A stretch of DNA of 64,000 nucleotides, taken from assembly GCA_004764695.1 (NCBI GenBank), contig SMSO01000014.1:6562029-6626028 (forward strand), given 5' to 3'. Below the pieces are notes generated by a model. It searched no databases. It saw only the letters and a list, made by a program, of their open reading frames with translations, and was not told the origin of the DNA. The translations under genes and the position numbers were made by a program. Of the stretch, positions 19,889 through 33,040 are shown in pieces; the first letter of the stretch is position 1, and the number at the start of each line of letters is the position of its first letter. The DNA is from Schizochytrium sp. TIO01. Lineage: Eukaryota > Sar > Bigyra > Thraustochytrida > Thraustochytriidae.

Positions 19889-22780
19889 ATGGACTTCAGG
19901 ACCTGCAACGCGAACCAGGAGGACCCGCTGCACTACGTTGCTAGTCTTGCTGAGAGGCTGCGAGGGGTGATGAACGATATAGAAGTATTTTCTGTGCGCT
20001 CCTCAAAGCTTTGCAATCTAGTTCAGCTAGTCTCTGAAAGACTTCAAGACTTATGTGAAGCAGAAACTCTAAGACAAGAACTTGAAGAGATCTTGCAAGG
20101 CTTGCTGAGACGCTTATCTCAAATTGTTGCTATAGAGGGCATAGACTGGAGAGATAACCAGCCAGAACTAGCTTTTATCATTCAATACGTCAAGTCATGC
20201 CAATACTTTGAGGAAATCTACATATCTCATGAGAGATTAGCCAGGATTGTGACACCACTCCTACAGAACGAAGGAAATACTCTAGATACAATCATTGTTA
20301 CCATGGATGACGATCATGAAGACTACAGTCAGGATTCTACATATTTCTCAAATGCCATTGTTGCAGCCAGGAGAAATTTCCCTGCCCTCCAAGATGAATT
20401 CATTGGTTTACAAACATTTGGCAAAAACGTGAACGACTTTGGAAGAGATCTAACGCAAAGACACATCCGTTTGCTACGGGCCACGTCTAAGATTTTGAGC
20501 AAGCTTGCATTTATAATTGCGCCATATGTGGCAACTGATTGTAATCCAGGAGGTCTTAGCTTTGAAAGAAGCAGAGATGTTCCTATGCAAGGCAGCTTTG
20601 GATTTGCGATCTCTTCTGTATGGCGTGGCCAATATGTGGTCCTTCGAAAGACCCAACCACAACATCCATTGATGAACGATCTTGATTTGCTCTATGCAGC
20701 TCAATCTTGGCAGGTAATTCGACATCCAAATATTGTGCAGCTTTATGGCACCTGCATTCTCGAAAACAATGTTAATCTTATCACAGAGAGGTGCCATCAA
20801 AGTCTTCAAAATTTACTCTATAACTGCAATGCAAGCCTTTCTCTCGATCAGGAGGACACAATAATCAAAGGCATCGTGCGTGGCCTGAAACATTTGCATA
20901 GTCTATATATAGTGCATGGAAACATTCAGCCAGAAAGTGTTCTTCTTGTGGATGGGTCGAACGGAAATATTAAGCTTACCGATATCGGTATTGCGCCCGC
21001 AAAATTAACGGACAAGACATACCGGTATGCTGCCCCAGAGCTCTACAGTTCGCCATTGCGCTGGTCTCGAGCTTCAGACATCTTCTCACTAGGAATTCTC
21101 TGCTGGGAAATCAAGGAATGTCAGCCTCCGTGGGGAGCAGAAAACAGAAACGTGATACAGAATCATGTATTGAAAAACCGCAGGCCGCAATTTGGCCACG
21201 ACACAGAATGGAAGTCTCATTTTCAGGAGCTGGTTACCAAAATGTGGGCTTCTGAGGCTACCAGTCGACCAACTGCAAAAACGATCTTCGATTGTGTTTC
21301 TAGCAATATAAAAAATCGAAGATCCTCACGGGTACTGGCGGGCATCTTGTTGAGTCATCGGCGCTCACCCGAACACCGAAAGTCAGGGAAAGAGACAGCT
21401 AGATGGTCTATTTCTACATTTGAAGAAGACGAGAATTTGGAAAATGAGCTTGATTCTCCCCAGCGTATACATGCAAGTCATACCGAGAGACCAGTCATGG
21501 AAATTACTAACGGGCAAGAAACATTCTCGATGTATGAGACAGAAGAACGCCTATTTGATAACTACGATGAGAACTACGGTGAGAACTCTGTTACCTCATT
21601 TCAAACTCCAAGCCTTAGAGAAGAGGCCAACTATAGAAATGAGGAAGGGTTAAGACCCTCTCAGGTTTCTCATGATGGGCTGAGTGAAACTAGCACGCGC
21701 TCATCTTTGGTAAATAATCAAGACCAATGGAATAAAATTTGTTCAATTTTGTCGCAACTTCGACTAGATAGCTGTGCTCCCCTCCTTGAACAAGCAGAAC
21801 TCACGACATTTGCCAGTTTTGCTGATTGTTCTGCGCAAGACTTGAAAGAGTATGGTTTTCATAAATTTTCAGACCGTGTGGCGTTTCTCTCCGCTGTTCA
21901 GGGCAATGAAGCATCTCATAGTTCCTCTGAGGATGATTCTTATGATGATGATGATGATTTCGATTCAGATATTCAAAATGAAGAAAGGTATGACGAGTTG
22001 CATTATCTCTTTCCATCGATCACTGATATGGAGACTGATAAGGAGCTTCAAGAATTAACAGAGCTCCTATCCACCATTCATCAAGAACATCATGCGAGAG
22101 AGATATATAGAGAATCAGGTTCCCTCCAAGAATGTAGGAATCTGACTCACCAGCAGCTTCGCACTATTGGAATACGAAACTTCGCAGATCGCCACTCCAT
22201 TCTCACAACTCTTTCGCAAAGTGAGTTCACAACGGACGATGACCTAACTCTTGAGGACTTTCTCTCAAGTATTAATATGTCCATGTACACCCGACAGCTT
22301 CAACAGCATGGTTATCGTAAGATTTCTGATTGCAAAAGACTTGCCTTTTGCGATGATGATTCACCTGAAGTCGAAAGCATCTCACTTGAAGATCGCAGTC
22401 GCATTGTTTTAGCTGCGAAGGAACACAGACTGCCTGCAGAACGTCCCCCGATTGTCATCGGAAGCTTTGTAAAACTCAATGCTTGTCATTCTAGAATTCC
22501 ATTCCATCATACAGGCGAGGTAATTCACATCGAAGAGCCTGGCCGTGCCATCTTGGTCAAATTTGAGGTAGGGAACTCGACGCTAGAAGAATATCTTCCA
22601 CGGGAGCATCTAGTTACCACAACCAAGCCGACCTCCAGGTTTTATGCGAAACCCCTGCTTGTATGGAAAAGGTTATCTTCTTTTAGGTTTTCTCGAGACT
22701 CCTTCATAAGTAGACAAAGAAGAGGTTCTTCTAGCAATGTTAGTTTTGTTAGAGATCGTTCATGGGACGACGACTACTAG
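19889..22780 (+). CDS. Pseudokinase with N-terminal helical region, three SAM-like modules and an SH3-like domain
   Basis: 963 aa from the first ATG at 19889; the frame opens at a TTG 33 bases earlier. Residues about 15-215 are helical and resemble the bundle that precedes TKL-type kinase domains, with an RSSKLCNLVQLVSERL helix. Residues about 231-475 are a kinase fold: GSFG glycine loop, K254 in VVLRK, AAPELY at the APE position, and DIFSLGILCWE. The catalytic HRDLKPEN is HGNIQPES (D to N, K to Q, N to S), and DFG is DIG, so catalysis is probably lost. Three SAM-like modules follow at about 613-672, 722-778 and 787-846, separated by acidic linkers, then a small beta-rich SH3-like domain at about 856-911 (GSFVKL...GEVIHIEE...LVKFEV). 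It is a tandem paralogue of the next gene. A scaffold or oligomer-forming signalling protein is inferred; partners are unknown. Confidence 0.88.
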   Translation: MDFRTCNANQEDPLHYVASLAERLRGVMNDIEVFSVRSSKLCNLVQLVSERLQDLCEAETLRQELEEILQGLLRRLSQIVAIEGIDWRDNQPELAFIIQYVKSCQYFEEIYISHERLARIVTPLLQNEGNTLDTIIVTMDDDHEDYSQDSTYFSNAIVAARRNFPALQDEFIGLQTFGKNVNDFGRDLTQRHIRLLRATSKILSKLAFIIAPYVATDCNPGGLSFERSRDVPMQGSFGFAISSVWRGQYVVLRKTQPQHPLMNDLDLLYAAQSWQVIRHPNIVQLYGTCILENNVNLITERCHQSLQNLLYNCNASLSLDQEDTIIKGIVRGLKHLHSLYIVHGNIQPESVLLVDGSNGNIKLTDIGIAPAKLTDKTYRYAAPELYSSPLRWSRASDIFSLGILCWEIKECQPPWGAENRNVIQNHVLKNRRPQFGHDTEWKSHFQELVTKMWASEATSRPTAKTIFDCVSSNIKNRRSSRVLAGILLSHRRSPEHRKSGKETARWSISTFEEDENLENELDSPQRIHASHTERPVMEITNGQETFSMYETEERLFDNYDENYGENSVTSFQTPSLREEANYRNEEGLRPSQVSHDGLSETSTRSSLVNNQDQWNKICSILSQLRLDSCAPLLEQAELTTFASFADCSAQDLKEYGFHKFSDRVAFLSAVQGNEASHSSSEDDSYDDDDDFDSDIQNEERYDELHYLFPSITDMETDKELQELTELLSTIHQEHHAREIYRESGSLQECRNLTHQQLRTIGIRNFADRHSILTTLSQSEFTTDDDLTLEDFLSSINMSMYTRQLQQHGYRKISDCKRLAFCDDDSPEVESISLEDRSRIVLAAKEHRLPAERPPIVIGSFVKLNACHSRIPFHHTGEVIHIEEPGRAILVKFEVGNSTLEEYLPREHLVTTTKPTSRFYAKPLLVWKRLSSFRFSRDSFISRQRRGSSSNVSFVRDRSWDDDY

Positions 22781-23217
22781 TAGTAAATTTTTAACAATTT
22801 CATTACACATGGTAGGTAGGTTTACCTAATAGTAGTGCGTTTACTTCGAGAGCGCCTAGGCCTGGTTATTAAGTTCCTATTAATAGACAATACTCGTTAA
22901 GTTGCCAAGGACACTTTAGGTACCTGGTATTATTAGGTAATTGTTCAATACTTCGGATACACCTAGTACCACCTATTACCAGCTAGGAAGGTAGGTAGCA
23001 CCCCTTGGAAAGTAAAATTTCTTGGAAACCAGAACCCAATCGATCCCGATTGAGTTTAGTACGGCTGATCCTTCTCAGCCTAGGGCTTGCTGTAGGCCAA
23101 GGCTTCCACTGTAGCCACCGAAGAGCCAAAACCCTCGCAACGTCGACGAGCCTTCAGGTGAGAGCGTCCTAGTAGTGGGCAAGTCCTTAAAATTGTGCTC
23201 AGCACGTGCACGCGACG
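22781..23217. other. Spacer between the two pseudokinase genes
   Basis: 437 bases holding the 3' end of the first gene and the promoter of the second. Very rich in GGTAGGTAGG, CCTAGTACC and CTAGTAG words (22795-23000), the densest patch of these in the window. No gene. Confidence 0.5.
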
Positions 23218-26200
23218 ATGCGGAACGCAGACGGACTTGATGCCCCACTAGGTCGACTTTTGGAGGCCCTCAAGACTTGCCAAGTTTCCCGTATTCGAGT
23301 TTCAAGGTTGTCAAAACTTGTAGAGGTGATATGTCGTGGACGGGATGGTGGGGGGCAAGATCTGGACCTTCCGACTAGCCTGAAAGGACGACTTTACCAA
23401 CTTATAGAAATCATTTGTGCGTATGTACGGGATATGCCGATACGCTTACGCGAGGTAGAATTCGTGCTGCAGTATCTGGCTTTCCAAGAGCGAATTGAAG
23501 AGCTCACAAGAATTGAAGTGGAGCTCTATGAGTTATGGTGCAGTTTTGTACTTTGCACATCGCTTGAATCAAATCTGGATGTGATGGCAATTTATCAACA
23601 TCCAGCAAAATGTACTTTCCATAAGAAGAATAGTAATGTACGAGGAGAAGAATTGGATATCCCTGGTGCTAAGAGTGATGCCATGACCAGTTCAGATGAA
23701 GACGATGCTGATGAAAGCGATTGTGTTGAAACACATGAAAAACTCGAACCTATGATGTCAGTTGATGACAGCATTATTGCTGTCCAAGCAAAAATTGAGA
23801 GTGATCATACGATTGACCAGAGCCGCGATTTTGAGGGCCTAAAGTTAGCATTGCGCAGGATTCATCTGGATATCGAATGCATTCATCCCCTTGACCTTGA
23901 TGAATTTTCTGGCACAGAGGACAGCGGCGACACTGAACAAGTGAGGGCACATGAATTCATTCGAGATGTTTTCCCTTTGATCATGCAGGAATACAATAAA
24001 GCAGACAGCTCTCTTGATGTTTCTCCTTCTTCTTTAGAGATGGATGACGTAGAGATGAACTTGTCGAATTTAGTGGTGGGTACATTTAGTGGCATCTGGT
24101 CTGGTCAACAGGTTGAGGTAAGCTGTGGGCCAGTCTTAGTCCGAGAGGAATTTTTAGATATATATTTAAGAGAGCTATATCATGCTCGTACGTGGAAGCA
24201 CCTATCACACCGGAATATTCAGACTCTTCTCGGGGGATGCGTACTTGACACACGAGTTCTTTGGATCACCGAGCAAGGCGACCGCACTCTCGCCGATGTT
24301 CTAGAAGACACCAACATAACTTTGAATTCGGACCAGGAGGAAACAATTATGAAAGGTGTCGCTCGCGGTCTCGTGTATCTTCACGAACAAGGACTTTTGT
24401 GTAATACCTTGAGTCCTGGCACAGTAACTCTGTCAGACCACCTACGATCAAACGTGAAGATCAAATTTACCACACAAAACAAAACACAGTTTCTTCAAAC
24501 GCACCCTATCAATACTGCACCTGAGGTTTTGATTGACCAAAGCACAGGCTGGAGCACAAAAAGTGATGCGTTCGCTTTCGGAATTCTATGTTGGCAGATT
24601 AAGGAGCGAGCCAGCCCTTGGTTTTATCTCGATGAGACAGACATACGTTTAGCAATCACGAACGGCGAGCGTCCCGCCTTCGGCAGGGACACCCCTTGGA
24701 AGCCACGACTTCAACATATGATTGAGGCTTTATGGGAGCAAGAGCCCTCCAGCCGCCCTGAAGTGGCACTTGCGTTACGCAGTCTTGAGGAACGAGTTCG
24801 TGATCGACGTTCAACTCGAGTGATGAAATCCTTGTTGCGGGTATATTGGCGCTCATCCCAAGACACAAGAGACGAAAGGGGGATCATTCTTGGGCTTTTA
24901 AGCCATGTTGGAATGGACAAGTATGCCTCTCTTCTCTTCGAAAACAACTTCAGAAGCCTGAAAAGTGCAGGAGTCTTACACACGGGGATCTTTGTGGTCT
25001 TGGTGTACCCTTTGCCTCAGACCGAGACAAGATCATATGTGTTCTGAGTGAGGAGGCATTCATTCAATCTGAGTCACAACGTTTCGCCTCTCTCCGAAAA
25101 GAGTCACAAAATCGTTTCAGCGCAGCGCATTATCAAGATTATGGGAGTGGTATTGAAAATACCGAATATAGCACTGAGAGCCACCTAGGGGCAGGCGTGA
25201 ATCATCTGGAGGATTCAACAAATTCATCTTCAGATAATCAATCTGAAACTACCTGTGAAAATGATGATGATGAGGAATCTTGCTCATCGGAAGAACAAGG
25301 AGCGAATGCAATAAGACAAATTCTACAAGAACTAGGACTTGAGGATTTTCTGCAACAGCTGATGGATGCAGGTCTAAATACTGTAACAAGCTGTAGAAAT
25401 GCTTCAGAGTACGATTTAGAGGCCGCCGGGGTAGAGTCAAGTGAGATAAGAGATCTACTACTAGATGCTTTCCAGACGCGGGGACTTGATGGTTCTGATG
25501 ATGGAGGAATTTCACTCCCTAGTTTCTCTAGTGAGTCAGAAAGTGAAGAGAAAGCAACCAGCAAACTTGAAAAGCTCATGGGCGCGATTGGAAGTGAAAG
25601 ATACTACCCAAGTCTTGTAACTCAAGGATTCTACTCTATTCGACGATGCAAGAAGCTCACGTCTGCAGATCTTGCTCGCATCGGAGTTGAGTCTGGTGAT
25701 CGCTCACAATTGCTCGACCTCTTCAAGTATTACAACTCCTCATTAGAAAGATCTGCAAAAACGTTACATTCAATTCGACAAAAAGCTGTCAAAGGAAGAA
25801 AAAAACGCCAGCATCGTGCTCGCCGCAAGCGCCATGAGCGCGAGCTTATTGCATGTGTGAGCAAAGCCAACTTGAATAGCATGGTTGAGTCTGTTCTTAG
25901 CGATCTCGGAATGGAGAGAGCTTCAACCAAGATTATAAAGTCAGGATTCAATATCAAGTCGGTCTTGCGCCGAGAGCCTTCAGATCTCTACAATGCGGGT
26001 ATTAAGAAGGAATTTCGCGAAATTATTTTTGACGCCCTCGAAACAATGGCTGAGCAACAGCTATACGAATACCAACGAGAGAGAAGGCGTCAAGCTAGAA
26101 GCAGAACTCCAACTACTGCTGTTGAGTCGAGATCGGTAGATGAGGCTGATGAATTCGATGACATTACAATGGAAAGCAATTTAGATTTTGACAGTATGGT

Positions 26201-27149
26201 GGATCTCCTTAGATCTTTGGCACCACGCACATCTGCCACAGCCTGGGAAGAGTTTCTGGTACCCCTTGCTAGACAATACAGCACATTAGATGACCTTCGC
26301 AATTTAGAAAATTATGATCTGACAAACATTGGCATATCAGATCCTGCCTGCAGAAGAGAAATACTGCATGTTCTTGGCAACCTTAATGAAGAAGAACTTA
26401 GGCGAATTCGTTCAGGATGGCGGCGTAGATCTCAGTTACCAGAGAATATTGAGGAAGATGATGCAGTCATTGAAAAGGTCCTCAAGTCTATTCATAGGCA
26501 GTCTCTTTCGCCAACCATTATTGCGCGCTTTGGAACAGTTCGTAGGTGTAAGGGTCTGACTCACAGAGACCTTCAAGAGATTGGAATGGATCGGTATCGT
26601 GACCGAGACCGAGTCATATCTGCATTTCGCCATTACAGCAGGAGCCCAACCCAAAGGAAACAGCGCTCTGGCTCGCTTGAATCTACGACGTCTGAAGAGA
26701 GCAATGAAGATTCGCTATTCACGATGCTGCATAGTCTTTCAATGGATAAGTATCATCGAAATCTTGCCCGCCACGGTTTTGACACACTGCACAAATGCAA
26801 AAAGCTGAGCTTAAGTGACTTAAAATCATGTGGAATTCCAGCTGATGAGAACAGTCAAAAGCTACTGAACGCGTTAAAGCTTGCTGCATCCCAGACTGAG
26901 CTAGATGAGAAACAGTATACAGGCAATGACTCTCATTCGAGCGAAGATTTGGATCTGGGCCCCTTTTCTCAACCTCGAGCAAGCATGAACAGATTATCCT
27001 CACGCATTAAGAGTCGTTCACCACTTAGTGGCTCTCAAGAGCAGGCTGTTGTAGCGAGGAAAAAATCGCTCGCGTTTCGAAGCAGTCGATTTCGTCGGTT
27101 GCCTTCACTAAATTTTGTTCGAATGTTGAAAATTAATAGTGACCAGTAA
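23218..27149 (+). CDS. Pseudokinase with seven SAM-like modules, interrupted by a one-base frameshift
   Basis: Two overlapping frames, 23218-25047 and one entered at about 24961 and ending at 27149, make one protein of about 1310 aa. The first frame begins at ATG 23218 (MRNADGLDAPL) and holds an N-terminal helical region like that of the previous gene and a fully degenerate kinase domain: HRDLKPEN is replaced by CNTLSPGT, and DFG by TTQ, while APEVL and DAFAFGILCWQ remain. The first SAM module starts near residue 555 and its second half is in the other frame; a shift of one base at the AAAA run 24961-24964 restores the SLKKCRSLTHGDL pattern seen in sister modules (RRCKKLTSADL, RRCKGLTHRDL). 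Further modules lie at about 697-753, 782-839, 886-943, 989-1056, 1082-1140 and 1164-1223. A Lys/Arg-rich stretch separates modules 3 and 4. The break may be a sequencing error, true decay or programmed shifting. Confidence 0.85.
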
Positions 27150-27880
27150 GATTATAACTCTAGCCTTTCCTACAGATAAAATTCTCTTGCTGAACGGGTA
27201 AAGCACGTTATAGAAATCATGACTTTCTTTTTCTATTCAGAATTTCATATTAGTTTCCGCCCATGAAATTTGTGTTCTCGTTCTATGGAGACAATTCAAC
27301 ACTGAGAAAAAGGGTAGAGCAGAGTATCTTTCGGGAGTTCGATTAGTCTAACCTTATTTTCAACTTTATGTGGGACATGAGAGAGCCCGTATTATCAAAG
27401 AGCCAATTATTAGCTTGGCTAAACCTCTTCCTCGCTCTATATTTCAACATCAACGACCTAGCAAGTAAACAAACGATCGCCGTCACTCTCAAGTATTCAC
27501 AGGCATTGGGAAAAAAAGAAAAGAAAAGTAGAAATGATTTATATTGAAACGGGAGTCAAAATAAAATTAGTAGATTTTCATTAACTTTCAAAGGAAGAGA
27601 ATTTACTTGAAATGCATATCGGTTTCCAAATTGATTTCGGCGCATATTTATGGAACAGCAAAGTTAATCTCAAAATGTTCTTTCTCTAAGCACGTCGATG
27701 CTCAAAGGTGAAACCATCTGACGTAAGTTCCAAAATTGCTAAGTGAAAAGAGTTGCGCAAATAATTAAGTCACCAACCCCCAACCCCCCTAGACCTACCT
27801 CTGTACAGAACATTTTTTTGTTTGATTGTGTAGGTCTTCCTCGCAACAAACCTGTTTCGCCAATCTGTCTGCGCTACGCA
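27150..27880. other. Intergenic DNA upstream of the glucosidase II beta-like gene
   Basis: AT-rich spacer with no gene. The downstream frame is open from about 27743 but has no ATG until 27881; the part before 27881 is Pro-rich and not family-like, so I treat it as leader sequence. Confidence 0.45.
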
Positions 27881-29320
27881 ATGGATCCCGTACGCAGACG
27901 ACGGGGTCTTGGCGTCTTGGCGTCTGAAGGTGATGGGGCAAGAGAAGATGACTATGCCTTCTTTGCTGGAGCAGCGGCTGATGACGATGACGACGATAAC
28001 GATCAGCGGCGCAGACGGCTGCCAATTGCAAGAGTACTTGTCGGAATGCTGAATTCAGACAGGGGCCGAAGGTCGGTCCTTGCCGCCCTAGTTCTATTAT
28101 TCTTCATGGTTACTACCACAATCTCACATCGAAGAGCAAAAGCACCAGAAGTGAATTTTGAAGAAAAGCCGGATAAAAAAGTCTTCATGGAGAGACATGG
28201 GAGCCTTTTGGATGAGATCAAAGTTACCATGGACTTGGTTGAGAATGAAGAATTGGTTCAAAACACGGCTGAAAGCAGATTTGATGATTTGAAGGTTACA
28301 GCAACTTCACCGCCCACGTTTCCGGATACTGTAGGCGATAGTGCTGAAGGACTGGAACCAGAAGAAGACGACAAACATAAGCTAAAGTTGAGAGGGTCAC
28401 CGACAGGTTTGACGACAGACAGTATGCATCACAATGATATAGAACCAAATACTAACCCTGATATAGAGGAAACTTTCAAACTTACATTCGTTGCAGGTAC
28501 ACGCCACGATGATCCAAGAAGGTACCTTGTTGGTCAAAGACAAAAGTTTCGTTGCCCTGGGAGCGACCCACGCACTGCACAAACTTTGCTGCACTTTCAG
28601 ATTAACGATGGTTACTGTGATTGTCCTGAGTCAGGATTTGATGAGCCTGGCACACCTGCTTGCTCAGGACTAGCTTTGGCATCTTACGAACCTTTGTTTT
28701 ATTGCGGCCACCGTGACGGTCGTTCGCTACCAAGTTCCCGGGTGTGGGATGGAGTCTGTGACTGCTGCGATGGTGTTGACGAGGGTCCAGGCCAGCGGTA
28801 TTGTAAAGATACATGTGACCAAAGACAATATGACCGTGAGCAAGAAGAACGGCGGATTGCAGAGGCTAAAATGCGTGGTAAAGATTTGCTATTGCAGAAC
28901 CCGGAACTTCAGAGCCTATTGGACAGTACACAATCTGAAAATGAACTAATAGTACTAACAGATCACTTGCTAGAACTGGTTCTAGGAACTTCTGGTCACA
29001 CAGCGCTAAGCTTTGATGACGGGCAATCCACATATGAGATTTCATCAACTCTCAAAAGATCCTTTCGCCAGTATTCAGGGCATCGCGCACGAGGACGCGG
29101 CATATCTCTCGGTAATGTGCGAAGCTGGGATCCTGTTCATAAGCGTCTTTTATTGAATAGTGGGGATCGGTGCCCGAATGGCATCTCCCGAACTGCTGAA
29201 ATAATTTTAGAATGTGCAGAATCAGGTTCTGCATCAACTATTGTTCGGGTTTCTGAACCTTCTACGTGCAACTATCTGGGTGTAGTAAAATCTGCATTTG
29301 GATGTGCACTACAGTCATGA
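27881..29320 (+). CDS. Glucosidase II beta subunit-like protein (PRKCSH type), type II membrane form
   Basis: 479 aa from ATG 27881. In the family, the beta subunit retains the glucose-trimming alpha subunit of glucosidase II in the ER and presents N-glycans to it. The N-terminus is acidic and cytosolic, with an RRRR cluster, then a hydrophobic segment at about residues 63-80 (SVLAALVLLFFMV) followed by HRRAK, which looks like a signal anchor and not a cleaved signal peptide. The luminal part has the paired LDL-receptor-A-like Cys repeats typical of the family: FRCPG...INDGYCDCPESGFDEPGTPAC and FYCGHRDGRSLPSSRVWDGVCDCCDGVDE. A short coiled coil follows, then a C-terminal MRH-like Cys region (GDRCPNGISRTAEIILEC...CNYLGVVKSAFGC). 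The long acidic middle region and KDEL/HDEL signal of canonical GTB are missing, so it may be a membrane-bound relative and not the main subunit. Confidence 0.8.
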   Translation: MDPVRRRRGLGVLASEGDGAREDDYAFFAGAAADDDDDDNDQRRRRLPIARVLVGMLNSDRGRRSVLAALVLLFFMVTTTISHRRAKAPEVNFEEKPDKKVFMERHGSLLDEIKVTMDLVENEELVQNTAESRFDDLKVTATSPPTFPDTVGDSAEGLEPEEDDKHKLKLRGSPTGLTTDSMHHNDIEPNTNPDIEETFKLTFVAGTRHDDPRRYLVGQRQKFRCPGSDPRTAQTLLHFQINDGYCDCPESGFDEPGTPACSGLALASYEPLFYCGHRDGRSLPSSRVWDGVCDCCDGVDEGPGQRYCKDTCDQRQYDREQEERRIAEAKMRGKDLLLQNPELQSLLDSTQSENELIVLTDHLLELVLGTSGHTALSFDDGQSTYEISSTLKRSFRQYSGHRARGRGISLGNVRSWDPVHKRLLLNSGDRCPNGISRTAEIILECAESGSASTIVRVSEPSTCNYLGVVKSAFGCALQS

Positions 29321-29753: not shown

Positions 29754-32660
29754 TTACATTTCATGCAGAGACCAGGTACAGGAGTTTGGGTCGCGAACAA
29801 GATCCAGCGTCGGCCAGTAATGATAGTCACACTTGAGTGTAAAGACGCGCTTCTTTTCCTTGAGCGAGATTGTGCGAATGCGGATGAATTCCCCGTCTTT
29901 CAGATTGGTCACAACTCGAACAAGATCATCAAGCGTTGGAGTGTCATGATCATTGATGCCCAAGATAAAGTGAGTAGCCTTGAGATCATATTTATGCGCC
30001 GGCGAACCATAAAACCAGCGACTGCAGTAGACAGTGGTACCAGGATCGAAACCACGGAAGTCTACAGAAGGATGTGGTTCCTGAATGAACATTCCTGCAA
30101 AAAGAATCAGACGGGAGGTTCCAGTATAGGAAAGTTCCGAAACAGGAACTTCGAGAGTCTGCTCCTTCAAGTCGCGAAGAATTGTTACTGAGACCTTAGC
30201 GGGGTTAGCTTCGGAATGATTTTGCTCCTCAGCGCACGTTGTTACTGTCTTCTGCACAGCCTGGAAAGTATGCATGGGCTCACCGTTCAGGTCTAAAATA
30301 ATGTCACCTGCCTTAAGTACCTTGGCCGATCGGGAGCGTGCATGAACAGACCGGATTGTAAGGACTTGATTGCGAGCTTCCTTGCTGCTTGCAAACTGCC
30401 GAACACGTTCGTTAGATAGACCCATGCCTGCTCGAGCCTTGGAAATGGGGGTCACAACAAAGTCTAATGCAAGGGTGCACATGGGACGACTAGCACGGCA
30501 GCCATCGACTCTCAAAGCTTCGACAGTTTCGTAAACAATGTCTGCTGCCACACCCACAAAGGTTTCCTTGTCCTTGTAACTTGACGATTGATAAGAGAAG
30601 GACCACCAAAATGCTTGGACTTGATTATCATTATCCAAGAGCACACCTCCTACGTTGGAGACAAGCTTATCAACATGGATCACAAGTTGATTTAAGGCAG
30701 TGAAACGAGGGGGACTGGTAATTGAGAAGAGTAACCGCTCAATATTGGTCACCGTGCATGCCTGTTCAACAGGGGTCATTTGGTGGGAGAGTCCAGCAAA
30801 CGTAGTACCATCTCCGGGGTTTAATTGCGTCGGCGAAAGCTTGAATTCAGCGAAAAAGGGTGTTAGCTTGCTTTCCGATGATGCATCTTCACCATTCTCC
30901 TGGAATGGTCCACCGTTCAGACTTTCCACTTGCAAAAGACTAGGGTCATACTGAACAATACTAAAGTTCTGCGTTGGGTGAACTAACAACACGCGACTCG
31001 GGATTTCTACACTTCCACAAAAGGTGATAGTGACGTTACATAGAGCATTGGGGACGGTATTGCGATCAACAACAACGAGACCATTTTTGGCATCAACTAC
31101 AATACCTGTGCCATACATGTTAGAGCAAGGGATGCCATCAGCTAAAAATGGAACATCACAGGTAACCATGACAAGGCCAGCACGTTTATCATCTGCCACC
31201 GGGATAGTGTGCGTTTCGCGCTGAGGGGTAAAGCTTGGAGCAGCAAGATCACGAAAGTGCCAGGTGCCATCCTGATCACATCGCTTCGCATGGCGCCACA
31301 CAAACCATGTTCGATCCACAGTAATGGAGCGGACTAGCTCATGGTGGCGATGTGAGACCTGCGCGTATCGAATGGAAATAGTGCTAAGATCTGGGTATTT
31401 GGAAATGACGCGCTCGAAAGTTTCCAGGTCTGGTGTCTCTTCGTCGCCAATAGCCAGGATAATTGAGTTCCAAGGGACATTAGACCGCCCCAACATAAAT
31501 CCGGACGACGCAAGGTACACAGAGCCAGTAGGTATGGTGTTGTTGATCGCCTGCGTATAAGATAGAGGGTGAATGACCGCTCCTGATATCTCGAGAAAGC
31601 CACTTGGCGTAAGGGTGTGCAGATCATCAGTGGCAACGTCAACGACAATATCTTCAGTGCCGCGACGAAGCTTCAGCTGTACAGTGTTTTCGCCAGCATC
31701 GTCGAGCACAGCCTCGAGCGGTAAGAACTCATGGATAAGCTGTCCATTGAGCTCAAGAAGGATATCTCCAGGAAGAACCCCAGCGCGGTCGCCAGGTCCG
31801 CCAGGAACCACCTGGTCAGCGACAAGCAGTCCTGTTGCTTTGGGGAAGGTTTTGCGTACTGTAGCCTCAACTTCACGGGGTAAGCCAAGACGTAGGGCCT
31901 CTGTAAACGCTTGATGCTTGAAGATTATTTGCAGTGTGCGCCGCGGCACTTGCTCACCCTTCCTCAGGTACTCAAGAGCCCTCGTGACGCGGTCTAGTGG
32001 CAAGTAGAAGCTAGAGGCTGCCTTGGTCTTTCCACCTGCGTTAAGAGCCACCGCATAACCTTCCGCATCAATGACTGGGGATCCACTTGATCCGCCTGAC
32101 GTGGAGCTCGCTGCTGCGTAGTAGAACGTATTATGATCATTGTACTCCTTAGAACCATAATGTGGAGCGTCTCGGTCTAGTCTTGCTAAAGTACCAGAGA
32201 GGATTGAGAGCTTCTCGCCAGCATCGTTTCCCAACAGCCTGACTTCGAGGCCAACGCGTGCTCTCTCTGGCGCCAGCGGAATTTGCTTTACCTCCTGGAA
32301 TTTCACCTCGGACGGGTCAAACTGAAAGACGCCATAGTCGTGAACCGGGTCTCTGTAGACAGCCTTGAGTTCTACTTCCTCTTTGCTCAAAAATGTGGCA
32401 TCCGCGCGCACGGGTCCGCACGATACTACGTGTCTATTGGTAAGGATGAGGCCCTTGGCTGCGTCTACCACGAAGCCCGTCGCGCTTGAGCAGCCTCGGC
32501 CCTCGCCGTCAAAGGCTCGAACGTTGTTCACACGCAGCACGACCACCGCCGGTGCTACCTTCGCAATCGCCTCTGCGAACACTCCGCTCGCCAAGCCTGC
32601 CGGCACGCCTGGCGTTCCGGGCTCTTCCGCGGCCATCAGCGCCGCCGAGTCGTCATCCAT
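29754..32660 (-). CDS. NMA111: Nma111/DEG7-type tandem HtrA serine protease with PDZ domains
   Basis: 968 aa from ATG 32660, close to yeast Nma111 in size. The first protease domain has the full trypsin-like triad: NRHVV (H77), HDYGVFQFDPSEV (D108) and GGSSGSPV (S192). PDZ domains follow (VVPGGPGDRAGVLPGDILLELNG). A second, degenerate protease domain (about 500-740) lacks the triad (VVDRNTVPNA in place of the His motif, SNVGGVLLDNDNQ in place of the Ser motif), then comes a further PDZ-like region (LKAGDIILDLNG). This double HtrA layout, with an active and an inactive half, is diagnostic for the Nma111/DEG7 group, which acts in the nucleus or cytosol of fungi (linked to stress and cell death) and in plastids of plants. 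There is no signal peptide here. The codon use is fairly GC-rich at the 5' end. The frame opens upstream from a TTG at 32702, without an ATG. Confidence 0.93.
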   Translation of the reverse strand: MDDDSAALMAAEEPGTPGVPAGLASGVFAEAIAKVAPAVVVLRVNNVRAFDGEGRGCSSATGFVVDAAKGLILTNRHVVSCGPVRADATFLSKEEVELKAVYRDPVHDYGVFQFDPSEVKFQEVKQIPLAPERARVGLEVRLLGNDAGEKLSILSGTLARLDRDAPHYGSKEYNDHNTFYYAAASSTSGGSSGSPVIDAEGYAVALNAGGKTKAASSFYLPLDRVTRALEYLRKGEQVPRRTLQIIFKHQAFTEALRLGLPREVEATVRKTFPKATGLLVADQVVPGGPGDRAGVLPGDILLELNGQLIHEFLPLEAVLDDAGENTVQLKLRRGTEDIVVDVATDDLHTLTPSGFLEISGAVIHPLSYTQAINNTIPTGSVYLASSGFMLGRSNVPWNSIILAIGDEETPDLETFERVISKYPDLSTISIRYAQVSHRHHELVRSITVDRTWFVWRHAKRCDQDGTWHFRDLAAPSFTPQRETHTIPVADDKRAGLVMVTCDVPFLADGIPCSNMYGTGIVVDAKNGLVVVDRNTVPNALCNVTITFCGSVEIPSRVLLVHPTQNFSIVQYDPSLLQVESLNGGPFQENGEDASSESKLTPFFAEFKLSPTQLNPGDGTTFAGLSHQMTPVEQACTVTNIERLLFSITSPPRFTALNQLVIHVDKLVSNVGGVLLDNDNQVQAFWWSFSYQSSSYKDKETFVGVAADIVYETVEALRVDGCRASRPMCTLALDFVVTPISKARAGMGLSNERVRQFASSKEARNQVLTIRSVHARSRSAKVLKAGDIILDLNGEPMHTFQAVQKTVTTCAEEQNHSEANPAKVSVTILRDLKEQTLEVPVSELSYTGTSRLILFAGMFIQEPHPSVDFRGFDPGTTVYCSRWFYGSPAHKYDLKATHFILGINDHDTPTLDDLVRVVTNLKDGEFIRIRTISLKEKKRVFTLKCDYHYWPTLDLVRDPNSCTWSLHEM

Positions 32661-33040
32661 GACGCCAGCAGCGAACTCAACACCAGCTGCCTCCTTCTCC
32701 AATCCCAGCGCTACCCGCGCAACAGAGGCCGTGCCTGCCCGAGTCCCCCGGCTTCCGCCCGGAACTGGACTTGGTGGATTGCTGCCCCGGATTCGATTCC
32801 TCCAGAGCTGCGCGACCTCGAAATCGGAGGATTCGAATTCGAATTTGGCGCAATCGAATTGGAATTAGATTTGCAATGACAATTCACTCAATTTGAATTT
32901 TCTTTCTTTCTCTCTCTTCAACGAAAATTAGTTCTTCGACGAACGTGAACGAACATAACAATCTCAATCTATCAATAATTAGCACGAAACAGCCCAAACC
33001 CGCCCCTCCTAGAGACCGCTTAGGACCTCCTAGTGCCTGC

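Follow-up and report, generated by a model that had tools for sequence, protein, structure and literature searches.

Two neighbouring genes in a 64,000-nucleotide stretch of the Schizochytrium sp. TIO01 genome (the window; C13:6562029-6626028) encode proteins in which a kinase domain without the catalytic Asp of the HRD motif is followed by a row of SAM modules and, most clearly in the first gene, preceded by a predicted helical bundle. The reading that we favour, with a probability of about 0.5, is that both are MLKL-like switch proteins, consisting of a bundle, a dead TKL-type kinase domain serving as a latch, and a SAM tail for sensing or clustering. The larger and partly fast-changing family to which the pair belongs might serve self-defence or the recognition of self. 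The genome searched comprised 64 Mb in 37 contigs; the pair and four paralogues of the C7 cluster (C7a to C7d) are referred to below as the SAM branch, and all features of the pair lie on the + strand.

Gene 1 (p1) is a single unbroken open reading frame at 19889..22780, encoding 963 amino acids with a four-helix-bundle-like domain, brace-like helices, a pseudokinase, three SAM modules and an SH3-like end, in this order. The pseudokinase (residues 234-467; 20588..21289) is matched by PF00069 with E 1.3e-30 and by PF07714 with E 4.5e-27, and the SAM region by SAM_2 and SAM_1 with E 5.9e-11 and 3.2e-9, respectively. The SAM modules of both genes were located with a profile built from the nine SAM modules of C7b. 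In p1 they occupy residues 614-673 (21728..21907; also Pfam SAM_2), 721-778 (22049..22222; SAM_1) and 785-845 (22241..22423; SAM_EPH, 25.8 bits, under its cut-off of 27). The SH3-like end proposed by the earlier note (22433..22588) is a conserved module, common to C7b (31% identity over 52 amino acids, pairwise E 1e-6) and to a SAM protein on contig C33, and had no Pfam match at E up to 1. A eukprot entry of 926 amino acids, by its name an MMETSP transcriptome entry (P0001, MMETSP0961), is 99% identical to gene 1, with 10 residue differences, an unbroken frame and the same start Met. Its organism field begins with Aurant, which we read as Aurantiochytrium, by the MMETSP assignment probably A. 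limacinum; the name follows this field, since the taxid given with the entry now denotes a fungus.

Gene 2 (p2; 23218..27149) has a helical N-terminus, a degenerate pseudokinase and seven SAM modules, distributed over two overlapping frames (23206-25047 and 24846-27149). The first frame tracks an intact counterpart, P0024 (1310 amino acids; source lgn, 2 contigs), to about 24963, a short A run inside the first SAM module. P0024 is continuous across both parts and differs at 4 of the first 575 residues and at 5 of the last 712 (1287 residues compared). The break is therefore either an assembly error or an allele; a small intron was rejected by eye, since conserved SAM sequence crosses the junction. 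The pseudokinase covers about residues 290-520 (24085..24777; PF07714 E 1e-15 over frame residues 323-518, with the alignment to the p1 kinase beginning at 24073). Five SAM modules were found strongly by the C7b profile, at 24877..25052 (cut by the frame break), 25302..25481, 25557..25733, 26460..26636 and 26706..26885, and two weakly, at 25875..26027 (i-E 0.045) and 26265..26384 (i-E 0.13, where the best Pfam SAM_TNK stretch also lies). Membership of the SAM families (PF00536/PF07647) is over the cut-off in both genes, SAM_2 scoring 42.8 bits in p1 and 62.9 bits in the second frame of p2 against a cut-off of 20.5. The tandem pair of dead kinases with three and seven SAM modules, first described in the earlier note from the letters alone, is therefore real, with Pfam kinase and SAM matches in both genes.

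The two motifs were also said there to have been lost in different ways, and an alignment of 32 kinase domains bears this out: p1 reads HGN for HRD (20915..20923) and DIG for DFG (20981..20989), and p2 reads CNT (24400..24408) and FTT (24466..24474) and is without the VAIK Lys. All four C7 paralogues retain this Lys and DFG, and read HRN (C7a) or HQN (C7b, C7c and C7d) at the HRD position. The catalytic Asp is thus missing from all six SAM-branch genes, and their kinase domains are, as judged from these motifs, catalytically dead. In a tree of 28 of the domains (four of the 32 omitted; two rows not from this genome), a branch with support of 98/98 has all five SAM-branch rows on one side, and the presence of the HRD Asp switches at least six times; the deep joins are unsure because several branches are long. 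The best NCBIfam match, a model of an anti-phage kinase, was rejected as an identity, being far below its cut-off and reflecting the kinase domain.

The N-terminus of p1 is predicted to form a four-helix bundle (residues 13-126; 19925..20266) from helices 13-28, 35-50, 59-80 and 92-126, with short breaks. Two further helices, 139-163 and 165-215, stand in the model at the position of a brace (20303..20533) and are less certain, because the predicted local distance difference test score (pLDDT) of this block is 66-89. Compared with known structures, the p1 bundle has MLKL at ranks 1-3 in VIA, with Z within the chance range for bundles. For the N-terminus of a sister branch, whose genes carry other tails, MLKL takes ranks 1-8 in Foldseek with probabilities of 0.82-1.00, far higher than for other bundles and without a row at E<=0.001. 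As a prediction, an MLKL-like head fold looks clear in the sister branch and is suggestive in gene 1. Sequence profiles gave less: Pfam MLKL_N (PF22215) had no match in p1 up to E 10, matched two of 18 paralogue N-termini (best E 0.0092) and scored 8.9 bits against the whole protein of locus L026 (cut-off 27), and a profile of 18 N-termini searched with hmmsearch against PDB sequences found four weak rows (best E 0.0054), MLKL not among them. Kinship between the N-termini of the SAM branch and of the sister branch with ARM repeats was not provable by sequence (hhalign probability 10.5, reversed control 5.8). In p2, residues 11-105 (23248..23532) are weakly collinear with the p1/C7 bundle in a consistent register (BLAST identity 26%, pairwise E 0.005; hhalign E 0.021, probability 2.3, reversed control E 0.27). 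The helical N-termini claimed earlier for both proteins are hence modelled in gene 1 and indicated in gene 2 by weak collinear similarity only, and the MLKL-like order of bundle, brace and dead kinase is a tentative prediction.

Near-identical heads in the C7 cluster bear different tails. C7b and C7c are 99.4% identical across their first 1577 nucleotides, which encode the head, and diverge thereafter. The tail of C7b resembles instead the C-terminal part of the SAM protein on C33 (L052; C33:4365000-4374900, - strand), a kinase-less frame of 2424 amino acids that has 18 SAM matches and ends in the SH3-like module seen in C7b, in two blocks of 84% and 94% nucleotide identity, the latter being the last 2.2 kb. 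The tail of C7c consists of five units of 101 residues, three of them identical across the 300 nucleotides compared. The end of the C33 protein also lines up collinearly with the tail of gene 1, SAM modules and SH3-like end together (24% amino acid identity, E 1e-11), and the gene 1 tail may therefore represent an ancient version of this arrangement.

More copies, which the earlier note had suggested looking for, are plentiful: a genome search with gene 1 gave at least 47 kinase matches (47 of 246 candidates scored). Among eight sister loci with downstream frames, seven have ARM-like repeats (L018, L019, L020, L023, L026, L027 and L030) and one has WD40 (L033); Pfam ARM models matched all five ARM-type loci scanned (L018, L019, L020, L026 and L030), and WD40 matched L033. 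This last locus (C4:1350942-1351688 region) joins a helical N-terminus, a kinase with HRD and DFG, and WD40 in a single open reading frame, a third type of tail. NACHT and NB-ARC were absent among the Pfam families listed for p1, p2, C7a to C7c and seven sister loci (in the case of L033, the best 25 of 60 families). When the L018 N-terminus was used as query, 26 matches were obtained, some with stops or in split frames and many in runs on C30, a pattern that would be expected of a birth-and-death cluster. Near-copies of the bundle-TKL-ARM type stand in tandem at C30:178452-190583 and C30:741255-754263, and stops or split frames occur in some of them.

The ARM repeats of sister loci are hypervariable at defined positions. 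Eight loci were scanned, of which six gave units by pattern; four were pooled (L018, L019, L023 and L027; 26 units), L020 and L030 were kept separate, and L024 and L031 yielded no units; arrays are truncated where the loci end. In the 26 units, positions 1-30 are for the most part near-fixed, often down to the codon, and positions 16, 19, 20, 23, 26 and 30 have entropies of 1.6-3.1 bits; positions 31-36 vary too and were excluded for a length difference of one residue. Picking the six most variable positions from L027 and L019 yields these six again. At these positions the ratio of non-synonymous to synonymous differences (pN/pS), obtained by simple counts, is 1.23 in L018 and L023 together (1.81 and 1.41 singly), and it is 0.60 in the framework; the more diverged arrays of L020 and L030 have ratios of 0.80 and 0.36. 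The helical periodicity of variability over positions 14-30 was matched by none of 5000 permutations. From this spacing we infer that the hypervariable positions of otherwise near-identical repeats lie on one face. The pattern is similar to that of fungal NLR repeats, for which conserved copies, concerted evolution and positive selection at concave-surface positions are described (PMC4986451).

In the mechanism that we favour, the N-terminal four-helix bundle would be tethered by the brace-like helices to the dead TKL-type kinase, acting as a latch, and the row of SAM modules, with the SH3-like end in gene 1, would sense or cluster. The SAM modules would engage either a partner or a SAM scaffold, for example the 18-SAM protein on C33; clustering, or phosphorylation by a sister kinase with intact motifs, such as L018, L019 or L020, would free the bundle, which could then oligomerise and act on a membrane or trigger a death or defence signal. 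The idea of a signalling or cell-death scaffold put forward in the earlier note is supported in part, with an MLKL-like head predicted and the activity of the SAM-branch proteins, including the switch itself, inferred. Because the superfamily retains the plan of the head and varies the tail between SAM, ARM and WD40, its function is most likely recognition of self/non-self or of pathogens. A bolder reading, which we hold tentatively and at less than even odds, is that thraustochytrids have a kinase-centred counterpart of NLR immunity, with MLKL-type heads, TKL kinase or pseudokinase latches and fast-evolving, exchangeable ARM, SAM or WD40 tails serving self/non-self or antiviral recognition, for example of mirusviruses, and regulated cell death.

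The proteins might instead be ordinary signalling scaffolds, in which the bundle serves dimerisation or docking and the pseudokinase partners sister kinases allosterically, while complexes at membranes or the cytoskeleton are built by the SAM arrays, without cell death. We consider this less likely than the favoured reading, though worth keeping in view, because it leaves unexplained both the differing tails on near-identical heads and the hypervariable positions of the sister arrays, and because by Foldseek probability the sister N-terminus matches MLKL far better than other bundles. It is much less probable that the SAM-branch proteins are baits, or integrated decoys, with a killer-switch head and a SAM tail copied from a host scaffold attacked by pathogens or viruses. 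The 94% identity of the last 2.2 kb of C7b to the C33 gene and the collinearity of the p1 tail with its end agree with copying, but the tail may have moved in either direction, no pathogen target is known, and p2, C7a and C7c resemble the C33 gene only in scattered stretches at the level of SAM modules. The least probable of these views is that the SAM branch is decaying, its tandem copies being relics of a kinase expansion that drift into pseudogenes. Indeed, the frame of gene 2 is broken in the present assembly, C7d contains two TGA codons, several C30 copies have stops or split frames, and a clustered TKL family is the richest in catalytically inactive members in the portion of the Phytophthora infestans kinome report available. 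Against decay, an intact gene 2 exists with 9 differences from that of the window in the 1287 residues compared, gene 1 has its 99% match in a transcriptome set, and the HRD Asp is lost branch-wide, yet the kinase fold and SAM modules are still recognisable.

Like the MLKL family, including plant AtMLKLs, the proteins are predicted to have the order of four-helix bundle, brace and kinase-fold domain, with a pseudokinase in the SAM branch. Unlike MLKL, the family has long SAM, ARM or WD40 tails, its kinase sequence is not specially close, and no RIPK3-like partner was identified. Plants possess a resistance protein, Pm13, that joins MLKL_NTD, a brace and a kinase (PMC10951266); its kinase is predicted to be active, and the available sections mention no repeat tail. 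Fungal NLRs with HeLo/HELL heads share some four-helix-type heads and, as far as the excerpts describe them, highly conserved WD, ANK or TPR repeats with selected binding-surface positions, whereas the present proteins have a TKL kinase or pseudokinase at their core instead of NACHT/NB-ARC, and ARM, SAM or WD40 repeats. According to a review of fungal cell death, HELL domains also occur in proteins with a kinase or pseudokinase (PMC12881547). Plasmodium PfpTKL also combines a SAM domain with a TKL pseudokinase, but its single SAM precedes the kinase, it has MORN motifs, and no helical-bundle head is mentioned in the partial text. The TKL expansions of the oomycete P. infestans are likewise stramenopile, often clustered and with inactive members; the domain table in that excerpt includes two SAM-bearing kinases, and four-helix heads are not mentioned in it.

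Directly downstream of the pair lies a Glucosidase II beta subunit-like gene (27743-29320, +), and nearby an HtrA-like protease with trypsin-like and several PDZ domains (29754-32702, -). Among the matches listed in protein searches (23, 1 and 42 rows), no orthologues outside Aurantiochytrium were evident, P0001 and P0024 being the genes' own counterparts; the other matches listed cover 13-26% or 12-58% of the query and have kinase domains combined with other partners. P0003, with a weak ARM match, is a possible remote relative, and P0044 carries a SAM_TNK model with SH3 models. P0002 (743 amino acids; jgi; on a 48-kb contig) combines MLKL_N at 50.3 bits, over the Pfam cut-off, with a kinase domain and with Sel1 repeats; from Glomeromycotina, MLKL homologues that bear such repeats have been reported (PMC8778642).

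No family of the bundle-TKL-SAM or bundle-TKL-ARM type was found in the open-licence papers searched, and the earlier note likewise knew of no named family with the combination. In the main text of an A. limacinum proteome paper the terms SAM domain, sterile alpha and armadillo do not occur, and kinase occurs four times (PMC12221091). The repeat tails, their exchange, a SAM branch with dead kinases throughout and the host group all appear to be new. A 2020 survey of 67 protists, in which MLKL was sought by homology, reports in the portion available no homologues of mammalian necroptosis regulators (PMC7539657); the comparison of predicted folds suggests otherwise for one protist. A 2026 review describes the antiviral defence of protists as not thoroughly characterised and puts forward A. 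limacinum and its mirusviruses as a model system (PMC12911909). The family supplies genes to delete in a culturable and engineerable organism, and lets one test whether NLR-like recognition can have a kinase, and not NACHT, as its core. If the bolder reading is true, regulated cell death with NLR-like recognition would exist in a single-celled stramenopile.
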